Source of the DNA: Dehalogenimonas sp. WBC-2
GTDB taxonomy: Bacteria; Chloroflexota; Dehalococcoidia; Dehalococcoidales; Dehalococcoidaceae
Reading direction: 5' to 3'
Assembly: GCA_001005265.1 (NCBI GenBank)
Contig: CP011392.1
Coordinates: forward strand, 558,001-622,000
Length of the DNA: 64,000 bases
Shown here: positions 12,269 through 37,346 of the stretch, one piece after another
How the letters are laid out: the number at the start of each line of letters is the position of its first letter
How positions within the stretch are numbered: position 1 is the stretch's first letter
Notes under the pieces: model-generated
Database searches by the model: none
Told to the model about the DNA's origin: nothing
What the model saw: the letters and a program-made list of their open reading frames with translations, nothing else
Made by a program: the position numbers and the translations under genes

Positions 12269-13042
12269 ATGCAAAACATTCTGCTAGGTTTCTCCTCAGC
12301 CAAAATTGGTGGTCACTCAGCACGGTCAATGATGTTGTTGGAGATGGATACTCTTGTTCATGCGTTACCTCCCACTATCACAAAGAACGATTTCACAAAG
12401 GCGATCATCGAAGAGAACCTTTTAAACAAACCTACGTTAAGTAGCCGGAAGAAGAGTTTTCGCCATTTAATGGACCTTTATGGTCTGGATCCGTCTAAGG
12501 CAATGTTCCGTGTTTTCTGGGATTTTGCCCATGCAGATATCGATTCTTTACCCCAGCTTTGTTTGGTCTGTGCGTATGCCCGAGATCCGCAATTACGCCA
12601 AAGCTTCGAGTTGATTCGTACGTTACGCCTGGGAGAGGTGCTTGTCAGGGCAGACATGGAACAGCATCTCGAAAATGGCTTTCCTGCCCGTTTTAGTTGC
12701 GCCACGAAAGCATCGATGGCCAGAAATGTGGACACTTCTTGGACCTTTGGCGGGCACCTCGAAGGCAGAGTAAAAAAAACTAGAAGGCTACCTCAACCGC
12801 GTCCAATTTCAGCGGCCTACGCTATGTTTGTTGGCTATTTGACTGGTCTGAGAGGCGAACGATTACTCGACTCCCTTTATGCCGCTCTTGTCGCATCAAA
12901 TCGAGCCCAACTACAGGCGGCTCTTTCACTGGCTTCTGCAAAAGAACTTATTTCTATTAAACAAGCTGCTGGCATTGTGGAATTTGATTTCTCCAATCTC
13001 CTGACCCAAGCAGAACAGGACTTAATACATGAATCGAATTGA
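12269..13042 (+). CDS. brxA: BREX protein BrxA (DUF1819 family)
   Basis: BrxA is a small, largely helical DNA-binding component of type I BREX defence. The 257-residue protein matches the DUF1819 pattern: an N-terminal helix-rich part, the LMDLYGLDPSKAMFRVFWDF segment near residue 70, then FALIRT-like FELIRTLRLGEVL and the C-terminal FSNLLTQAEQDL segment. It is the first gene of the operon and overlaps brxB by 14 bases, which is the canonical brxA-brxB order. Confidence 0.88.
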   Translation: MQNILLGFSSAKIGGHSARSMMLLEMDTLVHALPPTITKNDFTKAIIEENLLNKPTLSSRKKSFRHLMDLYGLDPSKAMFRVFWDFAHADIDSLPQLCLVCAYARDPQLRQSFELIRTLRLGEVLVRADMEQHLENGFPARFSCATKASMARNVDTSWTFGGHLEGRVKKTRRLPQPRPISAAYAMFVGYLTGLRGERLLDSLYAALVASNRAQLQAALSLASAKELISIKQAAGIVEFDFSNLLTQAEQDLIHESN

Positions 13043-13583
13043 TCAACTGCTCGAAAACTACCGCAGCCATATTCAAATGCCACTTCGACCTGGATTGCCC
13101 GCTTCCCAACGTGTCTGGTTTGCTGTCTATCCCGCTACAGAAGAAAGAAGACTGCTTAATTGCATCGGCGAATTTGAAATGGTAACAAAAGAAGCTGGCC
13201 ATCCATGGGTTCCCATAGACCTGAAGGGAAGTCTAGCTCGATGGCTTTCTTCCGTTGAAGAGGGAGAGCGAGCGGAATGGTTTAATAATCCCGGTGATAT
13301 CGAGTTGTATGCCAAAACCGAATGGAAAAGCGTCCTCACCGAGTTCTTCCGAAAAGAGGTAGCCCGTGCGACTGAGCCGGAGGGTACGGTCTTTGCCCTG
13401 ACCGGTTTGATGGACCTCTATGACTTTCTACATGTATCCGAGTTGATTGACGGTTTGGAAAAAACCTTTCCTGGATTTTTACTCGTCTTTTTCCCAGGTG
13501 AAAAGGAAGGTAACACCTACCGCTTTCTTGATGCTCGAACGGGTTGGAATTATCTAGCAACTCCGATACTTTCCGATAAATGA
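13029..13583 (+). CDS. brxB: BREX protein BrxB (DUF1788 family)
   Basis: BrxB is a small protein of unknown biochemical role required for type I BREX. The 184-residue product starts MNRIDQLLENY, has VWFAVYPATEERRL near residue 30 and ends with LLVFFPGEKEGNTYRFLDAR and GWNYLATPI, the recognisable DUF1788 ending. It overlaps brxA by 14 bases and is followed 22 bases later by brxC. Confidence 0.9.
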   Translation: MNRIDQLLENYRSHIQMPLRPGLPASQRVWFAVYPATEERRLLNCIGEFEMVTKEAGHPWVPIDLKGSLARWLSSVEEGERAEWFNNPGDIELYAKTEWKSVLTEFFRKEVARATEPEGTVFALTGLMDLYDFLHVSELIDGLEKTFPGFLLVFFPGEKEGNTYRFLDARTGWNYLATPILSDK

Positions 13584-13605: not shown

Positions 13606-16600
13606 GTGAAAACCAGAGAAATCTTCATCAAAGACCCGTTGGATTGGAAACTTGTCAATGAGGGGGTCTCCAGCAATAACACTGAGGATCTCACCACACT
13701 GAGGTACGAACTTGAATCGTTCGTATGCGAGGGTGAATATCTCAACGGCATGCGTCGCATCCTTCAGAGTTATCACGATACATTCAAAGCTCCGGAGCAG
13801 AAGGCGGCCTGGATCAGCGGTTTCTATGGCAGCGGAAAGTCCCACCTCGCCAAAGTACTCCGATACCTCTGGATCAACTTTGAGTTTCCCGACGGAACAA
13901 CCGCTCGCTCGCTTGCACATCTCCCTGAAGAAATCACCGATCTCCTTACTGAAATCTCAACCCTTGGCAAGCGTCATAACGGCTTGCATATGGCAGGCGG
14001 CACCCTTAAAGCGGGCACGGGCAACGTCCGCCTGCGGGTAATGAGCCTATTCTTCAAATCGGTTGGACTGCCTGAAGGGTATCCCTACGCCAAATTTCTT
14101 ATTCATTTGAAACGTGATGGCAAGCTCGATGAATTTAAAAAAGCCATTGAAGATCAGGGTAAAGATTTCGATAAAGAACTCGTACGCTTATATACCTCCG
14201 GTGCGGTGGCGAAAGCCTATGTCCAGTGTTATGATCACCTGAAGGATCCCTCGCAGGTAGGCGGGCTGCTCAGGGCCGAATACGCTAATTTGGATGATGT
14301 CAGCATAGACGAGATGTGTAGTATCATCCGTGAAGCGATTTCAGGTAATGGTAAAATGCCCTGCACTCTTTTGGTTCTCGACGAAATTCAACAATTCATC
14401 GGCCAGGATGCTCAAATTGCCCTGGACGTTCAGGAAGTCACTGAGGCACTTAGCAAAAGTATGGATGGACGTCTGATAGTTGTTGGTACAGGTCAGAGTG
14501 CCCTCAACGACATGCCAAATCTTCAACGCCTGATGGGCCGGTTCACTATTAAGGTACATCTTAAAGATAACGACGTCGAAAAGGTCGTTCGTACGGTCGT
14601 CTTGCAGAAGCGCGAGGATAAAAAGGCGGATATCAAAAAGCTAATTGATAAAAACGAGGGGGAAATCACCCGTCAGCTCAAGGGGACTAAACTTGCCACC
14701 CAATCAGACGACAACCTTGCCTATATACCTGACTTTCCGTTGCTTCCCGTCCGCCGCCGATTTTGGGAGCGAGTTCTCCATTCGGTAGACCCCACGGGCA
14801 CTGCAGCCCAGATGCGCACCCAACTCCGAGTCGTCCATGAAGCTTGTCGCGCTTACGCCAATGCCGAACTCGGTGCCGTTGTGCCAGGTGATTTCCTTTA
14901 CGATCAGATTGCCAATGACCTTGTGAGTACCGGTGAAATGCAAAAACGTTTCCAAGAAATTATCGAATTACAAAAGACTAAACCGGATGGCGCTTTACGC
15001 AGCCGTATTTGCGCTTTGGTGTTTCTGATCAACAAACTTTCGCGGGAACACGGCACTGACATCGGCGTACGTGCTGAACCTGAGCATTTGGCTGATTTGC
15101 TTAGTGAAGATCTGGTCATGGGCAGTACCCAACTCCGACAGCAACTTCCCGGATTGCTCGTAGCCTTGGAGCAAGATGGCATGCTCATGAAGGTGGATAG
15201 CGAATACCGTCTGCAAACCACCGAAGGGGCAGCTTGGGAAGCTGAATTCCGCAAACGTCGCGCTGCGGCTTTAAATGACCAGCCTTTGATAGCATCAAGA
15301 CTGTCTCAGTTCCTCGATAAAGCTTTGACTGACACTCTTGGTAACCCTTCAGTGCTCCACGGCGATGCCAAGGAGCGTCGGAAGATTACCATTCACCACA
15401 GTGAGGGCAAGCCGGAAGAAACTGATGCAATCACCCTTTGGGTACGCGACGGTTTCTCAACTCCGGAGTCTTCCGTGCTGGCCGATATCCGCAAACTAAG
15501 CACCGATGACCCAACGCTTCACCTATTCCTTCCGAAAATCCACGCCGATGAACTCAAGAACGCCATTGCCTCCGCGCAGGCCGCCGAAGAAACCCTGCAC
15601 TTCAAAGGCAACCCCACCTCCCCTGAAGGAAAAGAATGCCGCCAGTCAATGGCCACCAAACAAAACGCAGAAGAGCTGCGGGTTGAAGAACTGATTGATC
15701 AACTCCTTAATAACGCAAGCCTCTTTCTTTCCGGGGGGCAGGAGCAACCGGTAATGTTGCTCAAAGAAGGAGTGGAGACCGCCGCCAAACAGGTACTTAA
15801 TCGTCTGTACCCTAAGTTTTACGATGGCGATTCTGCGAGGTGGCCCCAAGTCCTGAAGAAAGCCAAAGAAGGTTCTCCCAGCGCGTTAGACCAGATCAGT
15901 TTTACCGGCGATCCCCAGAATCACCCAGTATCTGTGGCAATCATTGGCTTCATGGGCTCTGGCAAGACGGGCTTAGAGATCCGCAAAAAGTTTAATGCTC
16001 CGCCTTATGGTTGGCCTCAAGACGCCATTGACGGCGTCCTAACAACACTACTAGCGAGCAACCACCTCAGCGCCCGTATAAATTCCACTCCGCTCTCGCT
16101 TGCCGAAGTGGACCAGAAAAAGCTCGGGCAAGCAGCTTTCCGCATCGAGAGCCCGGTGCTTACCGTCGCTCAAAAACTAGCTATTCGCAAACTCTTCCAA
16201 GAAGCCGGACTTTCCAAGACGACTCCTGGCAATGAACATATCGATGCTGTACGTTTTATAGAACACGCCAAAGCGGTTGCCGCGCAGGCGGGCGGGGACC
16301 CGCCTGCTCCGATGGCACCCGGGGCTCCGGAGGTTAGCGCCTTAGAGTTTTACTCTGGTAATGATCTTCTCATGGCACTTCATGATCAGCGGGATGCACT
16401 ACTTGAAAAGATTAAAGTCTGGCAATCCGCTGGCAAAGAAATCGCTAAACGTCTTCCCGCGTTCGCCCTGACCGAAAAACTCGTCGCCCAAGCAGTTGGT
16501 CTAGCGGGGCAAGTCGAATGGTCCCCCACTCTAGCCGTCATACGAGCCAATCGTTCCCTGCTTGATGATCCTGACCCTGTCTCATACGTCCTTCATGCAG

Positions 16601-17022
16601 TATCAAATGCGCTACGAGTTAGTCTCGCCCAGGCATATAAGGCTTACTCCGAGATGTTTACGGTTCAGACAATGCGCATTAACAGTAATCCGGTGTGGCA
16701 GAAACTGGCGGACATGAAACGCCAATACCTGCTCTCTAGTGTCGGAGCATCGCAACGGGCAATACCCACTACTGGTTCGGATGAACAACTCCTTGCGGCT
16801 CTTCAGTCTTGTTCTCTAGCGAACTGGCAATCGCAGACCGATGCTTTAGCTGCCCAGTTCGACAAAGCTCTCGCTGCTGCCATAATCGAAGCCGAGCCCA
16901 AAGCCCGGCGAGTTACACTTTCCGCTGCAACAATTCATAATCAAACTGAACTAGATGCATGGTTAATTAAGTCTAAAACTGCCGTTGAAGCTGCCCTGAA
17001 AGAGGGACCAGTAATTCTCTAG
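13606..17022 (+). CDS. brxC: BREX ATPase BrxC
   Basis: BrxC is the large AAA-type ATPase of BREX. The 1138-residue protein has a P-loop GFYGSGKSHL at residues 72-81, a Walker B-like LLVLDEIQQFIG near residue 255, and a second P-loop-like stretch IIGFMGSGKTGL near residue 780, probably degenerate. The N-terminus (MKTREIFIKDPLDWKLVNEG) is typical for the family. The start is GTG 13606 with an AAAGGAGA ribosome site. It is in the standard place between brxB and pglX. Confidence 0.93.
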   Translation: MKTREIFIKDPLDWKLVNEGVSSNNTEDLTTLRYELESFVCEGEYLNGMRRILQSYHDTFKAPEQKAAWISGFYGSGKSHLAKVLRYLWINFEFPDGTTARSLAHLPEEITDLLTEISTLGKRHNGLHMAGGTLKAGTGNVRLRVMSLFFKSVGLPEGYPYAKFLIHLKRDGKLDEFKKAIEDQGKDFDKELVRLYTSGAVAKAYVQCYDHLKDPSQVGGLLRAEYANLDDVSIDEMCSIIREAISGNGKMPCTLLVLDEIQQFIGQDAQIALDVQEVTEALSKSMDGRLIVVGTGQSALNDMPNLQRLMGRFTIKVHLKDNDVEKVVRTVVLQKREDKKADIKKLIDKNEGEITRQLKGTKLATQSDDNLAYIPDFPLLPVRRRFWERVLHSVDPTGTAAQMRTQLRVVHEACRAYANAELGAVVPGDFLYDQIANDLVSTGEMQKRFQEIIELQKTKPDGALRSRICALVFLINKLSREHGTDIGVRAEPEHLADLLSEDLVMGSTQLRQQLPGLLVALEQDGMLMKVDSEYRLQTTEGAAWEAEFRKRRAAALNDQPLIASRLSQFLDKALTDTLGNPSVLHGDAKERRKITIHHSEGKPEETDAITLWVRDGFSTPESSVLADIRKLSTDDPTLHLFLPKIHADELKNAIASAQAAEETLHFKGNPTSPEGKECRQSMATKQNAEELRVEELIDQLLNNASLFLSGGQEQPVMLLKEGVETAAKQVLNRLYPKFYDGDSARWPQVLKKAKEGSPSALDQISFTGDPQNHPVSVAIIGFMGSGKTGLEIRKKFNAPPYGWPQDAIDGVLTTLLASNHLSARINSTPLSLAEVDQKKLGQAAFRIESPVLTVAQKLAIRKLFQEAGLSKTTPGNEHIDAVRFIEHAKAVAAQAGGDPPAPMAPGAPEVSALEFYSGNDLLMALHDQRDALLEKIKVWQSAGKEIAKRLPAFALTEKLVAQAVGLAGQVEWSPTLAVIRANRSLLDDPDPVSYVLHAVSNALRVSLAQAYKAYSEMFTVQTMRINSNPVWQKLADMKRQYLLSSVGASQRAIPTTGSDEQLLAALQSCSLANWQSQTDALAAQFDKALAAAIIEAEPKARRVTLSAATIHNQTELDAWLIKSKTAVEAALKEGPVIL

Positions 17023-17035
17023 GAGTTTACGTTCT

Positions 17036-20000
17036 ATGCCGACATTAATCTCCAAAGAAAATCGTAGACTTCTCGAAAAAGTCACCGCCGCCGCTCGCGT
17101 TTTAGCCGAGGCGTCATGTAAAGCTGCACTGGAAAACTTGGCTGTTCACGAGGGAGATTACCGTGATCACATGAATGTGGAGCAGCGCAAATTGCGAAAT
17201 CGCCTGCGCGCTCGCGGAAAAGCTCTGGGACAGTCCCGAGACCCACGCACTGGTCTTCAGGACATTCACCGCCTCACTGAATCGGCAGCTTACGAACATT
17301 GGCACCGCCTACTGTTCACACGTTTCCTCACTGAGAATCATCTTCTGATTACCGATGAGGCTAATGGATTTGTACCCATAACCCTTGAAGAGTGCGAAGA
17401 ACTAGCCCCAGAACTCGGTGCGCGAGATGGTTTCGATCTCGCCTGTCGTTTCGCTAGCCACACACTCCCTGGTGTTTTCCGACGTGACGATCCAGTACTC
17501 GATCTCCCCATTGCCCTCAATGACCAGGTAGAGTTGCGCAAACTGCTCGCATCCCTCCCATCCGAAGTATTCCGAGCCAACGACGCACTCGGTTGGACCT
17601 ACCAGTTCTGGCAAGCCCAGCGCAAAGATGAGGTTAATGCCTCCGGGAAAAAGATCGGCGCCGATGAACTGGCACCGGTGACCCAACTTTTCACCGAAGA
17701 TTATATGGTGGAGTTTCTCCTCCACAATACCCTCGGCGCGTGGTGGGCTGGCAAGATTGGACCAATCAAGGCAGACAACGAAGAAGATGCGCGAGCGCAA
17801 GCGGCATTATCCGCCCGTGATAGCGTGCCGGCAATCACGTGGCCTTATTTGCGTTTTGTACAGGATGAGAGAACAAAGACATGGCTCCCCGCCGCTGGCA
17901 CTTTCGACGGTTGGCCAAAACACGCACGCCTCATTCGTTTGCTTGACCCCTGCATGGGTAGCGGTCATTTTCTCGTGTTTGCCCTCCCACCACTCGTTCG
18001 CCTGCGTATGGAGGAAGAAAAAATCAGCGTGCAAGCAGCAGTAGTTGCGATACTTAAGGACAACATTCACGGCTTAGAACTTGACGAACGCTGCACACAG
18101 ATTGCCGCATTCAATGTCGCTTTGACGGCATGGAAACTGGCGGGTTATCAAGTCCTACCCAGTCTTAACTTGGCTTGCTCTGGACTTGCGCCCAGCGCCA
18201 CGGAGGCGGAGTGGGTAGTCCTAGCGGGAAACAACGAACGTGCGAGCAGCGGCATGGTTCGCCTGCACAGTCTCTTTGCGGATGCCCCCGTTCTCGGTAG
18301 CCTAATCAATCCCCACGCGCAAACCGGGGATATGTTCGAGGCCGAGTTCCATGAATTGGCCCCACTGCTAGAAAAGGCACTGGGTCAGGAAACCGAAGAC
18401 GACACCGCCCATGAGATGGCTGTGACCGCGCGCGGTCTCGCCAAAGCCGCCGAGTTGCTCGCAGGGCAATTTACGCTCGTAATTACCAATGTGCCCTACC
18501 TAGGTCGGGGAAAGCAAGATGACGTGCTTAAAGTTTATTGCGAACGCGTTCATCCCGAGGCCAAAGCAGACCTAGCAACTTGTTTCGTTGAGCGATGCCT
18601 GGATTTTTGCGCTCAGGGGGGAAGTACAGCTCTAGTGACACCACAGAACTGGCTGTTTATGGGCACTTACGTAGAATTAAGGCAAAAACTTTTAGTTGGT
18701 TCTAAGTGGGAATTTATCGGACGACTTGGCCCTAAAGGCTTTCAAACGCCGATGTGGGATTTCAATATCGTTCTCATTTGCCTGTCACGCAAAAACCCAA
18801 TCCCAAGCTCTAAGTTTTTCGGCCTTGATGTCGCTGATAACGAAACACCTTTAGATAAACAAGTTGCACTTGTGTCGACCAACATTTTACTTTTAAAGCA
18901 AAATGTTCAAAAAAATAATCCAGACGCGACTCTGCGTCTGGAGGATGCGTCTTCTCTCCCACTTCTCAGTGAATATACGCTTGGCGTTCATGGGACTAAC
19001 ACAAAAGATAGCATTCGATTTATAAGAAAATTTTGGGAAATTCCCCTTTTGTTAAAAGAATGGAGTTTTGGACAAACCACAACAGACACGTCAATGGAAT
19101 ACGCAGGATACCATAATATCTATTTTTGGGAAGAAGGTAAAGGCATCTTATATGACCTTTATAGGCGTGGCATAGCTGTTCTTGCTGGCGGCTTAGCTTG
19201 GCACAAAAATGGAGTTCTGGTGAGCCAAATGAATCGATTACCCGTTGCGCTCTATATAGGAACATTGTTCGACCAAAATTCCGCAGCTATTGTACCGAAA
19301 TCTGCTAAGGATTTACCTGCGATTTGGGCATTTTGTAACTCTTCAGAATTTAATCTCGAAGTCAGAAAAATTGATCAAGCACTCAAGGTTACCAACAATA
19401 CTTTGGTTAAGGTTCCATTCGATCTTAATCACTGGCAAAAAGTGGCCTCAGAGAAATACCCCAACGGTTTGCCCAAGCCGCACAGTAATGACCCTACACA
19501 GTGGCTTTTCAATGGTCATCCCAAAGGCTCGGGGCAACCGCTGCACGTCGCCGTCGCCCGCTTGCTGGGTTACCGCTGGCCGCGCCAGACCGGCAGCAAC
19601 TTCCCCGATTGCCCAGCGCTCGGCCCCGATGGTCTGGAATCCTTCACCGACGAAGATGGTATTGTCTGCCTGCCGCCGCTCAACCGTGAGCAACCAGCAG
19701 CAGCCCGTCTGCGCCAGCTCCTCACTGTCGCCCTTGGCACATTCGACGAACACGCCCTCATCGCCACCACCGGGCTCAAAGGCAGCAAATCAAAAACCGT
19801 CGAAGACTGGCTACGCGACGAATTCTTCGAACAACATTCCAAGCTTTTTCACGACCGTCCGTTTATCTGGCACCTCTGGGACGGACGCGCAGATGGCTTC
19901 CACGCCCTAGTCAATTACCACAAACTTGACTACTCTATGCTACAAAAGCTGACCTATAGTTACCTGGGCAACTGGATCCAACAGCAAGCCGATGACGCCA

Positions 20001-20425
20001 AGGCTGACAAACCCGGAGCCGCAGCACGTTTAGGAGCCGCACGTGAGCTTCAGTCCAAACTCGCTGCCATTCTCGAAGGTGAGGCGCCGCTTGATATCTT
20101 CGTCCGATGGAAGCCCCTTAAGGACCAATCTCAGGGCTGGCACCCCGACTTCAATGATGGTATCCGTCAAAATGCACGCCCCTTCCTCCTCGCTGGAGAT
20201 GTCGGCAAACGCGGAGCAGGATTGTTCCGCGCCGTACCTCTTTCCCTGAAGGACAAGGATCGTGGCGCCGAACCTCAATGTTCCAAAGACGAATATCCTT
20301 GGTTTTGGTGTGAAGAAGAACCAAGGACCGATTCCTTGGGCGGGAAAGAATTCGTTGGCAACAGGTGGAACGATGTCCACCTCACACTCGCGGCTAAAAG
20401 AGCCGCGTTAGGAGATCTGCAATGA
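17036..20425 (+). CDS. pglX: BREX adenine-specific DNA methyltransferase PglX
   Basis: PglX (BrxX) methylates the N6 of adenine at a non-palindromic site to mark self DNA; it is needed for both modification and defence. The 1129-residue protein has the SAM-binding motif DPCMGSGHFLVFA near residues 303-315 and the catalytic motif as NVPYLGRG near residue 483, in place of the more usual NPPY. The C-terminal half, from about residue 750, should hold target recognition. It ends with an ATGA overlap into the sbcD-like gene. The NVPY form keeps the Asn and the Tyr and should be active, but this is untested. Confidence 0.92.
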   Translation: MPTLISKENRRLLEKVTAAARVLAEASCKAALENLAVHEGDYRDHMNVEQRKLRNRLRARGKALGQSRDPRTGLQDIHRLTESAAYEHWHRLLFTRFLTENHLLITDEANGFVPITLEECEELAPELGARDGFDLACRFASHTLPGVFRRDDPVLDLPIALNDQVELRKLLASLPSEVFRANDALGWTYQFWQAQRKDEVNASGKKIGADELAPVTQLFTEDYMVEFLLHNTLGAWWAGKIGPIKADNEEDARAQAALSARDSVPAITWPYLRFVQDERTKTWLPAAGTFDGWPKHARLIRLLDPCMGSGHFLVFALPPLVRLRMEEEKISVQAAVVAILKDNIHGLELDERCTQIAAFNVALTAWKLAGYQVLPSLNLACSGLAPSATEAEWVVLAGNNERASSGMVRLHSLFADAPVLGSLINPHAQTGDMFEAEFHELAPLLEKALGQETEDDTAHEMAVTARGLAKAAELLAGQFTLVITNVPYLGRGKQDDVLKVYCERVHPEAKADLATCFVERCLDFCAQGGSTALVTPQNWLFMGTYVELRQKLLVGSKWEFIGRLGPKGFQTPMWDFNIVLICLSRKNPIPSSKFFGLDVADNETPLDKQVALVSTNILLLKQNVQKNNPDATLRLEDASSLPLLSEYTLGVHGTNTKDSIRFIRKFWEIPLLLKEWSFGQTTTDTSMEYAGYHNIYFWEEGKGILYDLYRRGIAVLAGGLAWHKNGVLVSQMNRLPVALYIGTLFDQNSAAIVPKSAKDLPAIWAFCNSSEFNLEVRKIDQALKVTNNTLVKVPFDLNHWQKVASEKYPNGLPKPHSNDPTQWLFNGHPKGSGQPLHVAVARLLGYRWPRQTGSNFPDCPALGPDGLESFTDEDGIVCLPPLNREQPAAARLRQLLTVALGTFDEHALIATTGLKGSKSKTVEDWLRDEFFEQHSKLFHDRPFIWHLWDGRADGFHALVNYHKLDYSMLQKLTYSYLGNWIQQQADDAKADKPGAAARLGAARELQSKLAAILEGEAPLDIFVRWKPLKDQSQGWHPDFNDGIRQNARPFLLAGDVGKRGAGLFRAVPLSLKDKDRGAEPQCSKDEYPWFWCEEEPRTDSLGGKEFVGNRWNDVHLTLAAKRAALGDLQ

Positions 20426-21678
20426 TACGTTTCATCCACATCGCTGATGCCCACATTGACAGCCCGCTTAAAGGTCTGGAGGCGCATGAAGGGGCACCCG
20501 TTGATTTTCTCCGCGGCGCAACGCGACGGGCTTTCGTAAACCTGATCCAACTGGCAATTGATGAGAACATTGATTTTCTGGTTATTGCTGGTGATATCTA
20601 TGACGGAGATTGGAAGGATTATAGTACCGGCTTATTTTTCCGGGGACAGTTGGCTCGATTGCGCGACAAAGGCGTTCAGGTTTATATGATTGCGGGCAAT
20701 CATGACGCGGCCTCGGTGATTTCCAAGAAACTGAGCCTGCCAGATAATGTGCATGTCTTTTCCACTCGGACGCCGGAATCCATGGAAGTGGAGGGATTTC
20801 CCGTGGTGATTCATGGACGTGGATTCCCACACCGGGCTGTGCCCGAGAATCTGGTAGTTGATTATCCCGCTGCCGTGTCGAATAAGTTCAACATTGGGCT
20901 CCTGCACACCAGCCTGACCGGTCGCCCCGGTCACGACATCTACGCCCCGTGTTCGGAAACGGACCTGCGTCAGAAAGGCTATGGCTACTGGGCGCTCGGT
21001 CACGTTCACAAACCCGAGGTGATCAGTCAGAATCCCTGGATAGTGTTTGCAGGGAACTGTCAGGGACGGGATGTGGGAGAGGTAGGTCCACGCGGTTGCC
21101 GATTAGTGACGGTGAATGATTCCTTGGAGGTGGAGCATGCGGAGTGGCATGACCTGGATGTTGTCAGATGGCAGGTGCTTGAGATCGATCTCACTGGGGT
21201 TACAGAAGAATCAGAGGCACTCAGTCGCGTCACCAAATCGATGGCTGGCGCTGTCAGTGAAGCGGAGGGGCGATTAGTCGCTGCCAGAATTGTGTTCACT
21301 GGAGCCACACCTCTGCACGGTTCCCTTCACCGTGAAACGCATCGCTGGCACGCCGAATTGCTGGGTCGTGCCCAAGACCAGGGCGAGGAGGCCATCTGGA
21401 TTGAACAAGTCAAGGTTTTAACATCTCCAGTGTATAGCCTGGCACAACTTGCTGAGCGAGATGCTCTTACCAAAATCGTTCTTGAGACGCTGGAAGAAGC
21501 CAGAGTAGAACCGGGAAATATTCCTAACGAGATTAAAGAGATGCTCGAAGTTCTGCCTCCCGAAATCCGAAACGAAGTTGAATATGACTGGGAAGAAAGC
21601 CAAAAGGCGACAGCGATGGAGGATGTTCGAGCCATCATTCTGGATGCCTTGGGCACGAAGGGGGGTAGCGCGACATGA
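20422..21678 (+). CDS. SbcD/Mre11-like metallophosphoesterase (YhaO-like) embedded in BREX
   Basis: The 418-residue protein has every metal-binding motif of Mre11/SbcD nucleases: DAHID at residues 9-13, GDIYDG near 56, GNHD near 91, LHTS near 157 and GHVH near 192. Proteins of this group are Mn-dependent DNA nucleases working with an SMC-like ATPase. The general layout, with a short C-terminal extension after residue 250, resembles Bacillus YhaO. The gene overlaps pglX (ATGA) and the next gene (ATGA), so its expression is tied to BREX. The role within BREX is unknown; restriction or trimming of phage DNA is an inference. Confidence 0.9.
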   Translation: MIRFIHIADAHIDSPLKGLEAHEGAPVDFLRGATRRAFVNLIQLAIDENIDFLVIAGDIYDGDWKDYSTGLFFRGQLARLRDKGVQVYMIAGNHDAASVISKKLSLPDNVHVFSTRTPESMEVEGFPVVIHGRGFPHRAVPENLVVDYPAAVSNKFNIGLLHTSLTGRPGHDIYAPCSETDLRQKGYGYWALGHVHKPEVISQNPWIVFAGNCQGRDVGEVGPRGCRLVTVNDSLEVEHAEWHDLDVVRWQVLEIDLTGVTEESEALSRVTKSMAGAVSEAEGRLVAARIVFTGATPLHGSLHRETHRWHAELLGRAQDQGEEAIWIEQVKVLTSPVYSLAQLAERDALTKIVLETLEEARVEPGNIPNEIKEMLEVLPPEIRNEVEYDWEESQKATAMEDVRAIILDALGTKGGSAT

Positions 21679-24600
21679 GATTTGATCGATTACACATCCC
21701 GGCCTTCGGACCTTTTACCGATCTGGAGCTCAAGTTCCCCGCTCAGGGCGGTGATCTCCATGTCATCTACGGATCCAACGAAGCGGGTAAGAGTTCTCTG
21801 CTTCGCGCTTTTCGCGATCTGCTCTTCGGTATCCATGCTCAATCGTCCGACAGTTTCGTGCATGACTATAAAAAATTACGAATCATGGGAGATATAGTCA
21901 GTCGGGCCGGGGAACGGCTTACCTTTCAACGGCGCAAAGGAAACAAAAATACCTTGCTGGATGTCGATGGCAATGAATTGCCGGATAACGCCCTTATCCC
22001 TTTTCTGGGCAGTGTGGATCAGGAATACTTTTCCACGATGTTTGGCCTTGGGACGAGGGAACTTCGCGAAGGAGCAACAGAACTACTCCGTGGGGATGGA
22101 GATATCGGTAAAGCTCTTTTCTCGGCCAGTATGGGTGGAACCCCAGTTCAACGGGTCCTGGAGACACTGACGGCAGAATCAGACCGTCTTTTCAAGGGTC
22201 GTTCTACAACCAGTGTATCGATTCGCCCGGCGGCAAATGGGTACATTGATTTTCTACATAAAAGCCGCGGTGCCGTCGTAAGTCCTGAGGCGTGGGAGGA
22301 GATTGAAAAAGAATTGGCGACAGCTGAGGAGGCTAAGGCCAAACTGGAAGGTGAAATTTTAGCTTTTACTGGAGACCTGGAATGGATTTCCCGTTGTGAA
22401 GATGCGCTTCCCACCGCGGGACGTTTAAGTGAGGAGATGCGAAAACTGGAAGTGCTTCCTTCAATGCCCAATGTTTCCTCCGATTTCGTCGAGCGGGCGC
22501 GAGCCGCCCGGAAAGCAACCGGCGAAGCTCATGCAGAAGTCAACCGCCTCACGTCTCAGATCGCCAAACTTGAAGAACAATTGGCAGGTTGCCAGACCTC
22601 GCCGACCTTGCTGGCTGAGGCCGACGCTATGGATCGTTTGCATCAGGACCTTAGCGTTTATAGGGATCGTAAGAATTCCCTGACCGACCTGGAAACCGAA
22701 TTGGCAGGACTTGAAGCGACTCTGCGGGCGGGCATGCAAAATCTGGAGCTAACTGGTAGTCTGTCTGAACTCGAAACACTGCGGCTCGGCAGTGCCGTTC
22801 GGCTAGCCTGCGAGGAGGTAGCCGATGATTTTCAAAAGGCACTGGATGAGCGCAAGAAAAACAAAGAGAAGACAGAAGACCTTAAGACGCAGATCAAAAC
22901 TCTGGAAACGCAGTTGCAGGCTCTGCCGGAAACCGACCTTACCAATCTCCGGGAGACCTTATCCGTAGCGGCAGCAGCCACTGAGGCCAACCGCACGCTT
23001 TCGGCCAGCGAATCTGAGGTAAAACGCCTCACCCTTGAAGCAAGTGATCACCATCGGGAGTTGACCGGCGCCCCAAACGACTTGGACACGACGGGAAGCC
23101 TTTCAGTTCCTACCAAAGCGACCATCCGCCGAATCGGCGAGGAAATGGACGGGATAAATCGGGATATCAAGAGCGAGGAAACCAAAATCCTTGACGGGGA
23201 AAAACGGATAGAGGCCCTTCAAGCCGAACTTGGTCGGATGGGGCGCCGTGGAGAATTACCCTCCGAACAGACTCTCCGTAAAGCCAGAGAACATCGAGAT
23301 CATGGCTGGAACCTTGTGCTGGCAGAGTGGAAAGGCAACGGCAGCGAGGAAGAATTAATCCCAGGCACACCTCTCGAGGGAGCCTTTCCACAAACGATTG
23401 TCCAAGCTGACGACATTGCGGATCAACTCCGTGAACAGGCTGAAGCTGTGGCTCAGGCGGAGGAAAAGCGTTTCCAGATAACCCTATCTGAAAAACAGCG
23501 CCACGAGGGGCAAGAGAAATTATTGAAACTCCAGAGCAAGCGGAGGGAATGCCAGACCTCATGGGAAGCGGCATGGCTGCCAAGCGGAATTTCGCCGCGG
23601 GCTCCGGCCGAAATGGAGGAATGGCGAGAAGCGTTGAGAAAGTTCAAAGACCTTCTGCTTCAATTGAGAGTTGCCGAGGAAACATTCCAACAGAAAAACA
23701 TCCAGGTCCAAAACGCCAAGGAACAGCTCGCCACTGTTCTCTCCGACTCTGTAGAAAAAGAGTTTACGTTGCTTTTCGACAAAGCCAGAAGGCGAGTCCA
23801 GCAAGGTGAACAGGCAACAGGTCGAAGAATCGAGGTGATCAATCAACTCCAAGGACTGAAGAGTCCATTGGAAACCCTTGAGCAATACAATGCACGGTTC
23901 GCAACTGCGGTCGATGTTGCGATGAACAAGTGGGAGACACAGTGTCAGATAGTTGGCATGCCGAAAAACATGTCCCCCAAGCCTGGCCTAGTTCTGTTGC
24001 AGGAACGAAAAGAACTCCTCGCGAAATTCGACAGCTGGAAGGAAGCATCTACCAAATCGCAGAGAACTAAGGATGCAATCGGTCAGTACGAACAAGACAT
24101 AAACGAAAAAGCCGTCGCCCTTGGCGCCAGAGGAGATACCACCGAGGCTCAGGAAATTGATTTGTGGAATACGTTGGCTAAAGCCCGCGACAACCAAACG
24201 CGCCGTGAGCAACTTGTTGGCCAAATCAAAGAAGCAAAAAGCACCCTTGGGGAGAATCAGGCATCCTATAACCAAGCGGTTCAAGCGTTTGAAGAGCTGA
24301 TCAACCTGGCGAAGCTTGAAACGGCTGAAGCGCTGGAGCCGTTGCTTGCGAATTTGGAGTTACGCGACAAAGTGAAGAGTCAGATTGCCAACTTCCGTGA
24401 CACTCTAAGCGGCCTCGCTCGTGGCCAAACAGTGGACGACTTCCTCGGCCGCATCAGGGAGGAAGATATCGAGGCCCTTCCCCGAAGGAAGGGCACGCTC
24501 CAGAGCCGGAAACAGGAACAGGAAGCAGCGCTCCAGACGGTGCGCGACACCCTGTATGCACTCAAAGGCCAGAGGCAAACGCTCGAAGTTGCCGGAGATG

Positions 24601-25160
24601 CCGCCGCGAACTATCGGCAGCAGGCCGAATCTTGCGCGGCGCGATTGAAGCAAGATGCTTCACGTTTTGTCCGTCTGCGTTTGGCTGCGCATTTCCTGCA
24701 GACTCAGATTGAGCGGTTCCGGAAGGAACATCAAGGCCCATTGCTGGAAAAATCGGGCCAAGTCTTTCAGAGTATAACTCGGGGCGCGTTCTGCGGGCTG
24801 GGCGCGGAGTTCAATGCTGATGATATCCCTATCCTGGTGGGTTTGCGCCCAGATGCGCCTTCAGTCTCTATTGTAGGAATGAGTGACGGCTCGCGGGATC
24901 AACTCTTTCTAGCACTTCGTCTGGCTGCGTTGGATCAATATCTTGAGAAACATGAGCCTATGCCCCTTATACTGGATGATTTGCTGATCACTTGTGACAA
25001 CGACCGTGCCGCTGCGATTCTCCCGCAACTGGCCACATTGGCCCAGCGCACCCAAATATTTCTCTTCACCCACCACGATCACCTCGTCGAACTTTGCCGC
25101 AAAACCCTGGGTGAGGACACTTTTCATCTCCACCAACTGAACACACTAACCTCAGAGTAA
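21675..25160 (+). CDS. SbcC/Rad50-like SMC ATPase (YhaN-like) embedded in BREX
   Basis: The 1161-residue protein has a split ABC-type ATPase: P-loop GSNEAGKSS near residue 33, long central coiled coil (about 200-1000, rich in E, K, L and Q), signature SDGSRDQLFLALR near 1068, Walker B LILDDLL near 1097 and a switch His in FTHHDHL near 1134. The N-terminal GRGDGDIGKALFSASMGG-like region (here LLRGDGDIGKALF) is typical of the YhaN branch. I see no CxxC zinc hook. It is coupled by ATGA to the SbcD-like gene, so the two should form one complex. It is followed after 15 bases by pglZ. Confidence 0.9.
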   Translation: MRFDRLHIPAFGPFTDLELKFPAQGGDLHVIYGSNEAGKSSLLRAFRDLLFGIHAQSSDSFVHDYKKLRIMGDIVSRAGERLTFQRRKGNKNTLLDVDGNELPDNALIPFLGSVDQEYFSTMFGLGTRELREGATELLRGDGDIGKALFSASMGGTPVQRVLETLTAESDRLFKGRSTTSVSIRPAANGYIDFLHKSRGAVVSPEAWEEIEKELATAEEAKAKLEGEILAFTGDLEWISRCEDALPTAGRLSEEMRKLEVLPSMPNVSSDFVERARAARKATGEAHAEVNRLTSQIAKLEEQLAGCQTSPTLLAEADAMDRLHQDLSVYRDRKNSLTDLETELAGLEATLRAGMQNLELTGSLSELETLRLGSAVRLACEEVADDFQKALDERKKNKEKTEDLKTQIKTLETQLQALPETDLTNLRETLSVAAAATEANRTLSASESEVKRLTLEASDHHRELTGAPNDLDTTGSLSVPTKATIRRIGEEMDGINRDIKSEETKILDGEKRIEALQAELGRMGRRGELPSEQTLRKAREHRDHGWNLVLAEWKGNGSEEELIPGTPLEGAFPQTIVQADDIADQLREQAEAVAQAEEKRFQITLSEKQRHEGQEKLLKLQSKRRECQTSWEAAWLPSGISPRAPAEMEEWREALRKFKDLLLQLRVAEETFQQKNIQVQNAKEQLATVLSDSVEKEFTLLFDKARRRVQQGEQATGRRIEVINQLQGLKSPLETLEQYNARFATAVDVAMNKWETQCQIVGMPKNMSPKPGLVLLQERKELLAKFDSWKEASTKSQRTKDAIGQYEQDINEKAVALGARGDTTEAQEIDLWNTLAKARDNQTRREQLVGQIKEAKSTLGENQASYNQAVQAFEELINLAKLETAEALEPLLANLELRDKVKSQIANFRDTLSGLARGQTVDDFLGRIREEDIEALPRRKGTLQSRKQEQEAALQTVRDTLYALKGQRQTLEVAGDAAANYRQQAESCAARLKQDASRFVRLRLAAHFLQTQIERFRKEHQGPLLEKSGQVFQSITRGAFCGLGAEFNADDIPILVGLRPDAPSVSIVGMSDGSRDQLFLALRLAALDQYLEKHEPMPLILDDLLITCDNDRAAAILPQLATLAQRTQIFLFTHHDHLVELCRKTLGEDTFHLHQLNTLTSE

Positions 25161-25175
25161 AAGGCGATTAACACC

Positions 25176-27479
25176 ATGACTATTCTTGAATCCATCTTCC
25201 AATCCCTTCGGAAGGCGGCCTCATACAACAAGCACGAATTAGCTGCACCACGGGTCATCCTATGGCCTGACGAGGAACGGTTGTGGACACAATGTTTCGA
25301 GCCGCTACCGGCGAGCTTTCCCTCTCTTTGGTCGCTCGGAGATTACGCTCCTGAGAAAAAGACCGGCCCGGCGGCTTGGTTGCGATTCCAACTGGAAAAG
25401 CAGGCCGGAAACGATATCCCGATAATTTACCTTCCAGCTATTGGACGCGCCGCTTTCCGTAGCGCAGACCAGTGCCCGATCAAAGCAAAGCATTTATTTG
25501 CGCTCCAGTTCCAAGGGCAATTCTGGACACAAAAGAACGGAAAGGACTGGACCCCATTTGCTTTCCTGTCGAGCGGGGATGGCGGGCTGGGGCTTGAAGT
25601 TGCCTCAGATCAAGACACGAAAAAAGCCATTCAGGAATGTCTTCGGGAATTACTGGAAGTTGAGGTAGATGCACTCAAGGGACGCAAGCTCGACGCTGGA
25701 GACTTCCGGGCTATCGTCATGAAGGATCCCGCGCAGACGCTTCTACGATGGATGGGAAATCCGCACAAAACTAGGATGGAACTTGAAAAACTCGGATCGG
25801 ATTGGGTCAGTTTCCGGGCAGTATGCCGGGATATCTATCACTTCGATCCAGAGAAGGATGGAGCGATTACTGCGGCCGAAAAACTGTCCTGTAGCAATGC
25901 TGCCTGGACGCTTGTTTGGCGACGTTACAAAGAAGCCCCCCGTGCCTATCCGGGTGTTGAGAAGTTGCTGGATTCTACGGAACAGCTCACCCTTTTTGAA
26001 CCCACGAGTGAGTATAAGCCGGGCTCGAATCGACAAGCGGAAGAAGGTTTGGAAAAAGAACTCCTCTCGTTGTCGTCGGCCTCCCATAAAGAGGCAATCA
26101 CAAAAATCAAGGTCTTGGCCGATGAACATGCCCAGCGCTCCACCTGGGTCTGGGCAGCCTTGGGGGAATCACCATTAGCTACAGCCATAGGTCATTTGCG
26201 GGATATGACTGAGGTCATACAGACGTCCGGAAATCCTTCCACTTGGGAAGCCCTTGCTGATTATTATTCAAAAATTGGTTGGAGAGCCGACCGAAGCATG
26301 CTGAGGGCTTTGGATGTCGCCAGATCGCCTTCTGCTACCAAGGCGGTAACAACCGCCATCCGAGCGATATATCTCCCATGGCTTGAAAAACTTGCCGCAC
26401 TCACTCAGACCTTAGCGGCTTCTTATCCGACAACCGGACCCAAGACTTGTCGTGTCTTAACTGTGGAAGAGAGTACGGTCTATCTTTTTGTTGATGGTCT
26501 CCGCATGGATTTGGCAAAAGACCTCGAGGAAAAACTTACTTCCTCCGGATTGGAGGTGAACAATTGGTATGAATGGTCAGCATTGCCAACGGTTACCGAG
26601 ACAGCTAAATTTGCTTGGATGCCGCTTGCAGAAAAACTGGGGGGACCGCTGGAAGGAGAGGGTTTCGAGCCTAAAGATGTATCAAACGGGAAGTCGATCA
26701 CTCACCCACGGTTCAAGCAACTTATCGAAGCACTTGGAATGCCATTCCTAGTATTTGATGGAACCTTATTCCCAACGGAGTGCGCTTGGTCTGAATTCGG
26801 TTCGATTGATACACGTGGCCATAATGAAGGCATGAAGATCGCATGGAGGGTTGAAGAAGAACTCATAGCGTTGCATCAGCGAATACTAGACCTTCTTCAC
26901 ATTGGGTGGACAAAAGTCAAAGTAATCACCGACCATGGTTGGCTCATGCTTCCCGGTGGGTTGCCTAAAACTGAGTTGCCCAAACATCTTACTTCATCCC
27001 GATGGGGTCGTTGCGCAATTCCAAATGCGGGCGCACAACACGGTTTTCCAATGACCTCATGGTTTTGGGATTCTGCTGAAGCGGTCGTACTCGCACCCGG
27101 AGTGACCTGTTTCACCGCAGGCTTGGAATATGCTCATGGCGGACTCACTTTGCAGGAAGCATTGATTCCTGCTTTGTCAATTTCAGTCAGTGAGACCAGC
27201 GACACCAAAGCCATTGTTCTGAAAGAAATAAAGTGGTCCGGCCTAAGATTGAACGCGATCTTCGAAGGTGCTCAAGGGCTTACCGTTGATATTCGCAGCA
27301 AAGCCGCCGATGCTGGCACCAGCTTGACTATATCTCCGGTGATTGCAACGGCTACCGGCCAAAAAACCAGCCTCCTTGTTGCAGATGATGACGCCCTTGG
27401 TTTAGCGGCTTTTCTCGTTATCGTCGACCAACAAGGCCAGCCCGTTTTCAAGCAACCCATTGTGATTGGAGAAAACTAA
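25176..27479 (+). CDS. pglZ: BREX phosphatase-domain protein PglZ
   Basis: PglZ is a core BREX protein with an alkaline-phosphatase-superfamily domain. The 767-residue protein has the metal-binding motif LFVDGLRMD near residue 436, SALPTVTETAKFAW near 465 and the second motif ITDHGWLMLPGG near 583. The N-terminal half is helical and family-specific. Its usual position in type I BREX is directly after pglX; here the SbcD/SbcC-like pair separates them. It ends 2 bases before brxL. Confidence 0.93.
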   Translation: MTILESIFQSLRKAASYNKHELAAPRVILWPDEERLWTQCFEPLPASFPSLWSLGDYAPEKKTGPAAWLRFQLEKQAGNDIPIIYLPAIGRAAFRSADQCPIKAKHLFALQFQGQFWTQKNGKDWTPFAFLSSGDGGLGLEVASDQDTKKAIQECLRELLEVEVDALKGRKLDAGDFRAIVMKDPAQTLLRWMGNPHKTRMELEKLGSDWVSFRAVCRDIYHFDPEKDGAITAAEKLSCSNAAWTLVWRRYKEAPRAYPGVEKLLDSTEQLTLFEPTSEYKPGSNRQAEEGLEKELLSLSSASHKEAITKIKVLADEHAQRSTWVWAALGESPLATAIGHLRDMTEVIQTSGNPSTWEALADYYSKIGWRADRSMLRALDVARSPSATKAVTTAIRAIYLPWLEKLAALTQTLAASYPTTGPKTCRVLTVEESTVYLFVDGLRMDLAKDLEEKLTSSGLEVNNWYEWSALPTVTETAKFAWMPLAEKLGGPLEGEGFEPKDVSNGKSITHPRFKQLIEALGMPFLVFDGTLFPTECAWSEFGSIDTRGHNEGMKIAWRVEEELIALHQRILDLLHIGWTKVKVITDHGWLMLPGGLPKTELPKHLTSSRWGRCAIPNAGAQHGFPMTSWFWDSAEAVVLAPGVTCFTAGLEYAHGGLTLQEALIPALSISVSETSDTKAIVLKEIKWSGLRLNAIFEGAQGLTVDIRSKAADAGTSLTISPVIATATGQKTSLLVADDDALGLAAFLVIVDQQGQPVFKQPIVIGEN

Positions 27480-27480
27480 C

Positions 27481-29526
27481 ATGCAACTCGATCCGCTAGA
27501 CCAAATCGCTGCCAAGGCGTTTGAAGGATACCTCGTTCGCAAAGATCTCGTACGCAAATTCAAAGGACAGTACCCGGTACCTACCTATGTTGCAGAGTTT
27601 CTTCTCGGGCGCTACTGCGCCAGTGTTGAGGAGGGAGAGATACAGGAAGGGCTCGCCATAGTCCAGCGACAGTTAGCCAGCCGGACTGTCCGGGCGGGTG
27701 AGGAAGAATTGTTTAAAGCCCGAGCTAAAGAACAGGGACGAGTAAAGCTTATCGATTTGATCAAGGCTAGGTTGGATGCCAAGAATGATTGCTTTGTAGC
27801 AGAACTCCCAAGTCTACGGCTTAATGATGTTCGGATTTCTGATGACCTGGTACATACGCATGACCGTATGTTGACAGGAGGATTTTACGCTGAAGTAGAT
27901 CTCACCTATGACCCCACCATCGCAGAAGAAAAAAGCGGCCATCCTTTCGGCATTGAGTCCCTTCGCGAAATCCAACTCTCGAAGAGTGATGTCCTGGAGA
28001 TATTATGCAAAGGGAGAATACTATTTACGTTCAAGGAGTGGAGAGACCTACTCATTCGTAGCATAGGGCTGGAGCCATCAATTCTCGGAGAACGAACGTG
28101 TGATGTGTTACTTCTTCGCATGGTGCCTTTTGTCGAGAACAACTACAACGCGGTAGAACTTGGCCCCCGTGGTACTGGTAAAAGTCACTTGTATCAACAG
28201 GTATCGCCTTATGCTCATTTGGTTTCAGGTGGCAAAGCTACTGTGGCAAAAATGTTTGTTAACAATGCCAATGGACAGCGTGGCCTCGTCTGTCAGTACG
28301 ATGTAGTGTGCTTCGACGAGATCTCGGGTGTTTCTTTCGACCAAAAAGACGGTGTGAATATCATGAAGGGTTATATGGAGTCTGGTGAGTTTAGCCGTGG
28401 CAAAGAAAGCATTCGCGGGTTTGGCGGAATAGTGATGGTGGGTAACTTTGACGTCGACGTGGAACATCAACAGCGCATAGGACATCTATTGGGGCCACTT
28501 CCACAGGAGATGCGTGACGACACAGCCTTCATGGATCGTATTCACTCATACATTCCGGGTTGGGATGTTCCAAAAGTAAACCGGGAGCAATTAACCGACC
28601 ATTTTGGCTTGGTAAGTGATTTCCTTTCATCTTGTTGGAACCATCTGCGGGTTCAAAGCCGGGTTAACAAACTCCAAGGGCGTATACAATTTGGTGGAGC
28701 CTTAAGCGGTCGAGATACATCGTCCACACACAAAACTATGAGCGGGCTGCTCAAACTCATGTTTCCAGATTCTAGAGTAGATGTTCCGGATGACGCCATT
28801 GAATGGGCTGCCAGGCTTGCCTTAGAAAGTCGTCGCAGAGTGAAGGAGCAGCAAAAACGCATCGGTGCCGCCGAATTCCGAAACACTCATTTCAGCTTTA
28901 CTATTATTCCCGATGGCATGGAGCAATTCGTGTCGACACCTGAACTCCGGAGCGAGAACAGCATCGGCAGCGACCCGCTCCCTGCCGGTCAAGTATGGGC
29001 ATTATCACCCGGGGGTATAGATGAAAATCCTGGACTATTTCGCATTGAGGTCACTGAAGGACCAGGAGGTGGGGTCAAGATTTTAAATCAAAGCCCTCCG
29101 GGACCACTAAAGGAGAGTGTGCATTGTGCTGCGCAGAATCTCTATACAAGGGCAAAAGAACTAGTTGGTGATCGTGATCCGCGTTCTCATGAATTCACTA
29201 TCCAATTTCGAGCTTATGATGCCAACAAGGGTGCCACGGCAACTGGAATTCCTATTTTGCTTGCCATGTGTTCGGCGCTTGTAGAGCGCAGCCTCGAAGG
29301 TGGGCTTGTTATCGTCGGCGGGCTTAATCTCGGTGGATCAGTTGAACCTGTGTATAATGCTATAAGCATCGTTGAATTGGCTGCCGACAAAGGTGCACAA
29401 AAAATACTAATGCCAGTTTCAGTGCGCAAACAACTTTTCGAACTCCCTGATGACTTGGCCACTAAAGTGACCATTATTTATTACGCGGACACGAAGGACG
29501 CCTTGCTTAAGGCCTTAAACGATTAG
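27481..29526 (+). CDS. brxL: BREX Lon-like AAA protein BrxL
   Basis: BrxL is the last core gene of type I BREX, an MCM-like AAA ring with a Lon-like C-terminal domain. P-loop GPRGTGKSHL lies near residue 227 and Walker B FDEISG near 277. The C-terminal domain (about 575-680) resembles Lon (GGLNLGGSVEPVYNAISIVELA) but the usual PSAG serine position reads TATG and the lysine position in the GGLKEK motif reads P, so protease activity looks lost. A TTG at 27466 would overlap pglZ, but ATG 27481 with a GGAG site is the better start (681 residues). Confidence 0.92.
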   Translation: MQLDPLDQIAAKAFEGYLVRKDLVRKFKGQYPVPTYVAEFLLGRYCASVEEGEIQEGLAIVQRQLASRTVRAGEEELFKARAKEQGRVKLIDLIKARLDAKNDCFVAELPSLRLNDVRISDDLVHTHDRMLTGGFYAEVDLTYDPTIAEEKSGHPFGIESLREIQLSKSDVLEILCKGRILFTFKEWRDLLIRSIGLEPSILGERTCDVLLLRMVPFVENNYNAVELGPRGTGKSHLYQQVSPYAHLVSGGKATVAKMFVNNANGQRGLVCQYDVVCFDEISGVSFDQKDGVNIMKGYMESGEFSRGKESIRGFGGIVMVGNFDVDVEHQQRIGHLLGPLPQEMRDDTAFMDRIHSYIPGWDVPKVNREQLTDHFGLVSDFLSSCWNHLRVQSRVNKLQGRIQFGGALSGRDTSSTHKTMSGLLKLMFPDSRVDVPDDAIEWAARLALESRRRVKEQQKRIGAAEFRNTHFSFTIIPDGMEQFVSTPELRSENSIGSDPLPAGQVWALSPGGIDENPGLFRIEVTEGPGGGVKILNQSPPGPLKESVHCAAQNLYTRAKELVGDRDPRSHEFTIQFRAYDANKGATATGIPILLAMCSALVERSLEGGLVIVGGLNLGGSVEPVYNAISIVELAADKGAQKILMPVSVRKQLFELPDDLATKVTIIYYADTKDALLKALND

Positions 29527-32887: not shown

Positions 32888-33081
32888 TGCAATCAATTTA
32901 AAGTTCTGTGAACGGCCCGGACGCGCGCATTCCTAAACCACGCATCCCGTGTTTGCACGGCACGGGGAGTGTCAAGGATCAATCAATAAAGGATGTCCGA
33001 TAATACTGGCCATTGTTCAAGAGTAATTTGAACAATCAGACTCCATGGTTTAATATTCGAAATCAGGGAGGGACACCAGTG

Positions 33082-35073: not shown

Positions 35074-35480
35074 CATATTCTAGTGAATTTATTTCGCCAA
35101 GCAGCTGCTTCAATGGAAGATCTCTGTTCTATCTTGAGGATTGCCTCCTGAATTCGATACTGTAATCCTGCTGTCTGGTGTAGGCGGTAGGCCTGTTTAA
35201 GGAATCCGTGATAATCCTTTGCTTCAAATGCACGATTAAGTAAAGTTGCTGTGTCATATGGAAGTTTTATATCCACTGTACCGATCATTGCAAGCAGAGT
35301 ACTTGCGCACCCGCGCAGGAACATCTCTTTCGCAGTGGTATCTATATCTTCCTGTGGAATTACAAAACCTGCGACTTTAGCTTTTCTTATGGCTTTTGCT
35401 AACTGTCCTTGACGTAGAAGGGCTGTTATCTCTGAATCCTTGGTCTTCTGTGCTACCACTTGCTGACGGAAATCTTGCAT
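35070..35480 (-). CDS. Small unknown partner of the helicase gene
   Basis: A 136-residue, mostly helical protein (MQDFRQQVVAQKTKDSEITALL at the start), with no Cys, membrane segment or known motif. Its start codon at 35480 overlaps the last base of the helicase gene stop, so the two are translationally coupled and probably work together. Confidence 0.65.
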   Translation of the reverse strand: MQDFRQQVVAQKTKDSEITALLRQGQLAKAIRKAKVAGFVIPQEDIDTTAKEMFLRGCASTLLAMIGTVDIKLPYDTATLLNRAFEAKDYHGFLKQAYRLHQTAGLQYRIQEAILKIEQRSSIEAAAWRNKFTRIC

Positions 35481-37018: not shown

Positions 37019-37346
37019 TTTGGTTTCTTTCACTGATGGAGTAATAGTGACCACTCAACACATTATAACTGCCGAGAAATAGAATGCAATAGCTAGACTG
37101 AAAACTGAGCCTGGTTATCAGTCATTTCGAGATGGCTAACCAGGAGATTACAGAATACACCGGGGTTTTCTAGAATCAGCTGTGCTAGTAAGGTAATCTG
37201 GGGTATCTTTCGCTGGCGATTTTTACTCGGCAACATAACGCAAGATTGGTGGAGGCATGAATGGTTTGGTTTCCGAATTTGCCATCGGACCTCACTTTTG
37301 ATCGGGATATTTTGGTAAGGACGAGTATAAACGCCGCTCCCACCTG

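Follow-up and report, generated by a model that had tools for sequence, protein, structure and literature searches.

The stretch of DNA that we analyzed, called the window here, comprises 64,000 nucleotides of Dehalogenimonas sp. WBC-2 (GenBank assembly GCA_001005265.1, contig CP011392.1, positions 558,001 to 622,000), whose genome is complete and consists of a single contig of 1.73 Mb. Eight genes lie on the same (forward) strand between positions 12269 and 29526 of the window, in the order brxA, brxB, brxC, pglX, a metallophosphoesterase gene, a coiled-coil ATPase gene, pglZ and brxL. The product of brxA (12269 to 13042) matched the PADLOC BrxA model at 253.9 bits and fell slightly below the cut-off of the Pfam BrxA model, and that of brxB (13029 to 13583) matched PADLOC BrxB at 178.7 bits. 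The AAA+ ATPase gene brxC (13606 to 17022) was recognized by PADLOC (1299 bits) and by NF033441 (753 bits; cut-off, 400), and the adenine methyltransferase gene pglX (17036 to 20425) by PADLOC (1472 bits) and by alignment. Beyond the two extra genes, pglZ (25176 to 27479) scored 802 bits with PADLOC and 784 bits with NF033450, "BREX-1 PglZ type B" (cut-off, 400), and brxL (27466 to 29526) scored 943 bits with PADLOC and 435 bits with TIGR02688 (cut-off, 329) and matched Pfam BrxL_ATPase (1.2e-123). With brxA, brxB, brxC, pglX, pglZ and brxL ordered on a single strand, we assign the operon on its gene content as a complete type I BREX system with a type B PglZ.

The G+C content is 0.50 to 0.53 over most of the BREX operon, compared with 0.39 to 0.43 just upstream and 0.41 to 0.43 downstream, and none of the seven other genomes of the genus that we searched contained a type B PglZ above the cut-off. 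It therefore seems probable that the operon was acquired. Motif IV of PglX (residues ~484 to 488) reads NVPY rather than NPPY, as it does in essentially all of the type B-associated PglX proteins that we aligned. A few kilobases downstream of the operon lie genes for an Hsp90/MORC-type HATPase protein (33013 to 35073) and a Schlafen-group-3-like helicase (35480 to 37054), which are possibly further defense genes.

An Mre11-fold nuclease and a Rad50-like ATPase between pglX and pglZ

The first of the two extra genes (20422 to 21678, forward strand) encodes a protein of 418 amino acids that matched Pfam Metallophos (4e-13). Its match to the curated SbcD model TIGR00619 (7.8e-14, 52.1 bits) lies below the NCBIfam cut-off of 77.65, and we therefore place it in a divergent branch rather than with SbcD proper. 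All five metal motifs are intact, namely, ADAH (8), GDIYDG (57), GNHD (92), LLHT (160) and GHVH (193), and an alignment showed that the metal ligands are invariant across 39 relatives. The predicted structure (pLDDT 85) returned only Mre11/SbcD chains among its top 50 matches in the PDB (E values of 3e-16 to 3e-12), the best of them (3e-16) being Mre11 from Mre11-Rad50-DNA complexes, so that the model points firmly to an Mre11 fold.

The second gene (21675 to 25160, forward strand) encodes a 1,161-amino-acid protein that matched Pfam AAA_27 (8.4e-67). It carries a Walker A motif, GSNEAGKS (33), a signature motif, SDGSRDQ (1070), a Walker B motif, LILDD (1098), and an FTHH motif (1131). In the predicted structure the ABC head is split between the two ends of the protein, with a long coiled coil between them, which is the architecture of Rad50 and SbcC. 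Foldseek matched the model to condensin, MukB, Smc5/6, Wadjet JetC-type and Rad50 chains, the head regions aligning with Rad50 at 17 to 20% identity; global TM-scores were low because of the flexible coiled coil. No CxxC zinc hook was found in the window protein, and the hook was absent from 31 of 32 sequences compared. In all 32, an Asp replaces the usual catalytic Glu of Walker B, giving DD. Together with the missing hook, this substitution suggests that the activity of the pair may differ from that of SbcCD. We take the nuclease and its AAA_27 ATPase partner to be a pair of the YhaO/YhaN type.

The joints of the pair and the other SbcC and SbcD genes of the cell

The nuclease gene overlaps pglX by four bases (ATGA, 20422 to 20425), and the ATPase gene overlaps the nuclease gene in the same way (ATGA, 21675 to 21678). 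An earlier account made from the letters of the window alone (the sequence-only reading) had reported both overlaps, the order of the BREX genes and the coordinates of the pair correctly; its descriptions of the two proteins, an SbcD/YhaO-like nuclease in which none of the five metal motifs is missing and an SbcC/YhaN-like SMC ATPase, are likewise borne out by the matches, motifs and models described above. We considered the overlaps as evidence of a coupling specific to BREX and rejected this. Most copies of the pair, inside BREX or outside, have the four-base overlap between nuclease and ATPase genes. Of 40 sampled loci, 18 have a pglX that terminates in ATGA (against 81 of 383 other open reading frames), and the genes that follow are as varied as YhcG, Fic and pglZ itself. 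The joints thus reflect operon organization and no special link. In four stand-alone copies of the pair (L017, L068, L069 and L070), the two genes do not overlap and lie 0.8 to 3 kb apart.

The pair is not the only SbcCD of the cell; had it been, the sequence-only reading would have counted this against its proposal. The same genome encodes a canonical SbcC, whose hook reads CPVC, at ~882.3 kb, and another, separate SbcD-like gene lies at ~1044.2 kb.

Recurrence of the pair in BREX operons

The sequence-only reading had suggested looking for the order pglX-sbcD-sbcC-pglZ in other genomes. Using the nuclease as the query over 84,980 genomes, we recovered a clade of 36 loci at 55 to 85% identity, followed by a break to 50% or less. 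A second sample, unbiased toward the pair, came from a family search for type B PglZ in 1,550 genomes. The arrangement does recur: six further loci, from Verrucomicrobiota, Gammaproteobacteria and the phylum of the Geobacteraceae, have the pair in a BREX operon. In a Geobacteraceae metagenome-assembled genome (MAG) (L006), the pair lies within a whole BREX operon with both pglX and pglZ, both of which are also present with the pair in two Verrucomicrobiota MAGs (L013 and L022). The type B PglZ sample contributed one locus with the pair between pglX and pglZ (L175), and in a Lamprocystis MAG (L028) and a MAG labeled Akkermansia (L034) the BREX operon containing the pair is cut by contig ends. 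Two other loci have only brxL just upstream of the pair (L040) or a pglX remnant nearby (L023). Counting these two, BREX genes were found on the same piece of sequence in 7 of the 36 loci at 55% identity or more, whereas none of the 44 relatives at greater distance had any (Fisher test, p = 0.0026).

We placed the BREX and stand-alone labels on trees of both proteins. The SbcC tree, restricted to firm labels (7 BREX loci and 13 stand-alone loci with long flanks), required five changes between the two states, all of them forced by well-supported branches. The SbcD tree, where three uncertain labels (L018, L023 and L040) were kept, required nine changes, at least seven of them forced. These forced changes mean that the pair entered BREX several times independently, in different phyla, and they led us to reject a single ancestral recruitment followed by coevolution. 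On both trees the labels were no more clustered than shuffled labels, which gives no indication of a lasting specialization for BREX. The nuclease and ATPase trees trace the pairs of the window, L006 and L175 to a single origin or close to one. For the pair of L028, the nearest neighbors on the trees are stand-alone copies from other Chromatiaceae, while the PglZ of that locus groups with Verrucomicrobiota loci, which indicates that, on these phylogenies, its cargo was picked up locally.

The pair as optional cargo of the pglX-pglZ slot

Among the 25 sampled type B loci that had both pglX and pglZ on the same piece (one of them, L172, is from a genome in which a stand-alone copy of the pair had also been recovered), 8 had an empty gap between the two genes, 1 contained the pair and the rest contained other genes. 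Within the window's own PglZ subclade, the pair was present in three of seven members; for three of the others (L173, L184 and L167), the piece covered hardly any or none of the stretch leading to pglX. In none of the plasmid-borne type B BREX loci that we examined was the pair found in the slot, whether annotated or called from open reading frames.

The genes between pglX and pglZ proved optional and exchangeable from locus to locus. They encode YhcG nucleases (L006 and L206), GmrSD (L160 and L183), Fic with DUF932 (L175), a cytosine methylase with a PD-(D/E)XK nuclease (L022) and a DUF4143 ATPase (L204), and McrBC-like, HNH and DarT genes occupy the slot in plasmid loci. Where the pair is present, other genes lie between it and pglX or pglZ in L006, L013, L022 and L175. 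A recurrent cargo of another kind, an SMC/ABC-like ATPase (833 to 1,040 amino acids) followed by a Schlafen AlbA_2 protein (390 to 424 amino acids), was seen in L164, L165, L177, L181 and L182. In three loci pglX is broken into two or more frames (797 plus 290 amino acids in L175, 681 plus 346 in L164 and 433 plus 308 in L182), which may reflect phase variation, decay or assembly error. Extra genes have been reported in the pglX-pglZ gap of approximately 7,000 of 9,000 genomes, approximately 5,000 of them without a known system there (PMC11341690).

Most members of the pair's own clade are located away from BREX, and in two genomes (G404 and G409) the type B PglZ locus lacks the pair, which lies on a different contig. 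Stand-alone pairs adjoin ordinary genes, such as those for NADH dehydrogenase, glutamine amidotransferase and a citrate transporter. Since neighbors of this kind predominate, we rejected the idea that stand-alone copies belong to other defense systems; the only defense-like neighbors were an OLD-TOPRIM gene (L026) and a ThiF/E1-E2-like gene (L035). An origin in phages or other viruses was also rejected, IMG/VR yielding only two relatives (42% and 24% identical) and the phage records none with more than 80% coverage.

We therefore consider it highly probable that the pair is an accessory Mre11-Rad50-type module captured as optional cargo in the pglX-pglZ slot. The sequence-only reading was right that an Mre11/Rad50-like pair lies within a BREX operon of type I that is complete; the arrangement recurs in other genomes, and the pair is not the cell's only SbcCD. 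Its proposal that the pair is an internal, coupled component of BREX does not survive the stand-alone position of most of the clade, nor the scarcity of the pair among type B loci and within the PglZ subclade.

Discussion

The sequences and loci that we compared show that the BREX core and the motifs of both the nuclease and the ATPase are intact, that the nuclease has an Mre11 fold, and that the pair is embedded codirectionally, recurs, is optional and entered BREX several times independently. A role for the pair can be proposed by analogy. PglZ is a metal-dependent nuclease that contributes to defense (PMC12205998), which makes the premise from which the sequence-only reading started, that BREX usually blocks phage without clear DNA cleavage, out of date; SbcCD cuts DNA ends, hairpins and blocked ends (PMC6265447). 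In the scheme we propose, BREX halts replication of unmethylated phage DNA, which PglZ can nick or cut. The SbcD-like and SbcC-like proteins, produced together with BREX, would assemble into a complex, gated by ATP, and engage DNA ends, hairpins or protein-blocked ends in the manner of SbcCD of Escherichia coli. By degrading exposed ends, stalled forks or branched replication intermediates, the module would make the block irreversible, adding to BREX defense and being dispensable for methylation. Given the analogy with SbcCD and the contribution of the PglZ nuclease to defense, we lean slightly toward such an end-processing antiviral mechanism. The broader idea that BREX repeatedly recruits a dedicated Mre11-Rad50-type end nuclease to finish off stalled phage DNA, linking recognition of unmethylated DNA to destruction of ends and replication intermediates, is put forward tentatively, and we regard it as somewhat doubtful.

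The stand-alone members of the clade beside ordinary genes suggest that the pair may have a general role in repair. Carried further, this would make the window copy a YhaON-type repair pair that landed in the operon by chance, or one that mends self-inflicted chromosome damage such as PglZ nicks and stalled forks, with no direct antiviral role. That most copies in the clade lie outside BREX, beside unrelated genes, is consistent with this idea, as is the annotation of plasmid-borne relatives as "DNA repair exonuclease." Against both versions stand the repeated, independent insertions at a single slot of the BREX operon, one otherwise filled by nucleases and defense genes, and the other SbcC and SbcD-like genes that the cell already has. 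We consider a housekeeping passenger of either kind unlikely.

Two further explanations tie the pair more closely to BREX. Like PARIS, it might be a back-up effector that guards BREX and, triggered by phage antirestriction proteins or by failure of BREX, cuts DNA and aborts infection. Its position is of the same kind as those of PARIS (PMC11341690) and BrxU (PMC8565348), and a coiled-coil ABC ATPase with a nuclease resembles the Lamassu-type sensors (PMC10586767), with a weak match to LmuB; but the nuclease has a repair-type Mre11 fold rather than that of an abortive effector, and the pair is also found alone, without BREX, so we judge such a guard improbable. It is more improbable still that the pair is a genuine extra subunit of a separate BREX subtype, binding PglX or PglZ and required for restriction. 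In five loci the pair lies between pglX and pglZ, and in the window, L006 and L013 it adjoins pglZ, as would suit a subunit, but 24 of the 25 sampled type B loci lack the pair, as do 4 of the 7 members of the window's PglZ subclade (3 of these with too little upstream sequence for certainty), and other genes separate it from pglX or pglZ in the four loci noted above.

The reading of the pair as an optional end-processing module bears on how BREX stops phage, which is still unsettled in the field. Repeated, independent recruitment of a recombination-type end nuclease into one slot suggests that what remains after BREX has acted is phage DNA ends or stalled replication intermediates. Closely related BREX loci that either carry or lack the pair offer a natural plus/minus comparison.

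Comparison with known systems

The window pair resembles SbcCD and Mre11-Rad50 in its Mre11 fold, five metal motifs, split ABC head, long coiled coil and adjacent overlapping genes, but it differs in scoring below the SbcD cut-off, in lacking the zinc hook, in its Walker B DD, in its place inside BREX and in the presence of a second SbcC in the cell. The YhaO/YhaN-type pair of Bacillus subtilis would share with it a nuclease of ~420 amino acids, an AAA_27 ATPase of ~1,160 amino acids and the lack of a hook, but the window pair is embedded in a BREX operon. Lamassu also combines a Rad50-like ATPase with a nuclease, and PADLOC gave a weak LmuB match (6e-13); LmuB, however, is ~650 amino acids long (PMC10586767), and the Lamassu effector does not have the Mre11 fold. 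Genes for the LmuA effector and LmuC were not found in the window BREX operon, and we rejected membership in Lamassu.

Extra defense genes inside a type I BREX operon are known from BrxU of pEFER (PMC8565348) and from PARIS of Salmonella D23580 (PMC11341690); the window differs in that its cargo is an Mre11-Rad50 pair and in that BrxU sits between brxC and pglX. The auxiliary BREX nucleases described in the main text of a 2026 survey are likewise nuclease modules within the core locus, with REase, HNH, HKD, OLD/TOPRIM, HEPN, PIN and Schlafen effectors (PMC12839542). That main text does not mention Mre11, SbcC, YhaN or YhaO, and our literature search found no BREX paper reporting SbcCD as cargo. 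On the strength of these sources, the Mre11-Rad50 pair is a new type of cargo in a known BREX slot.
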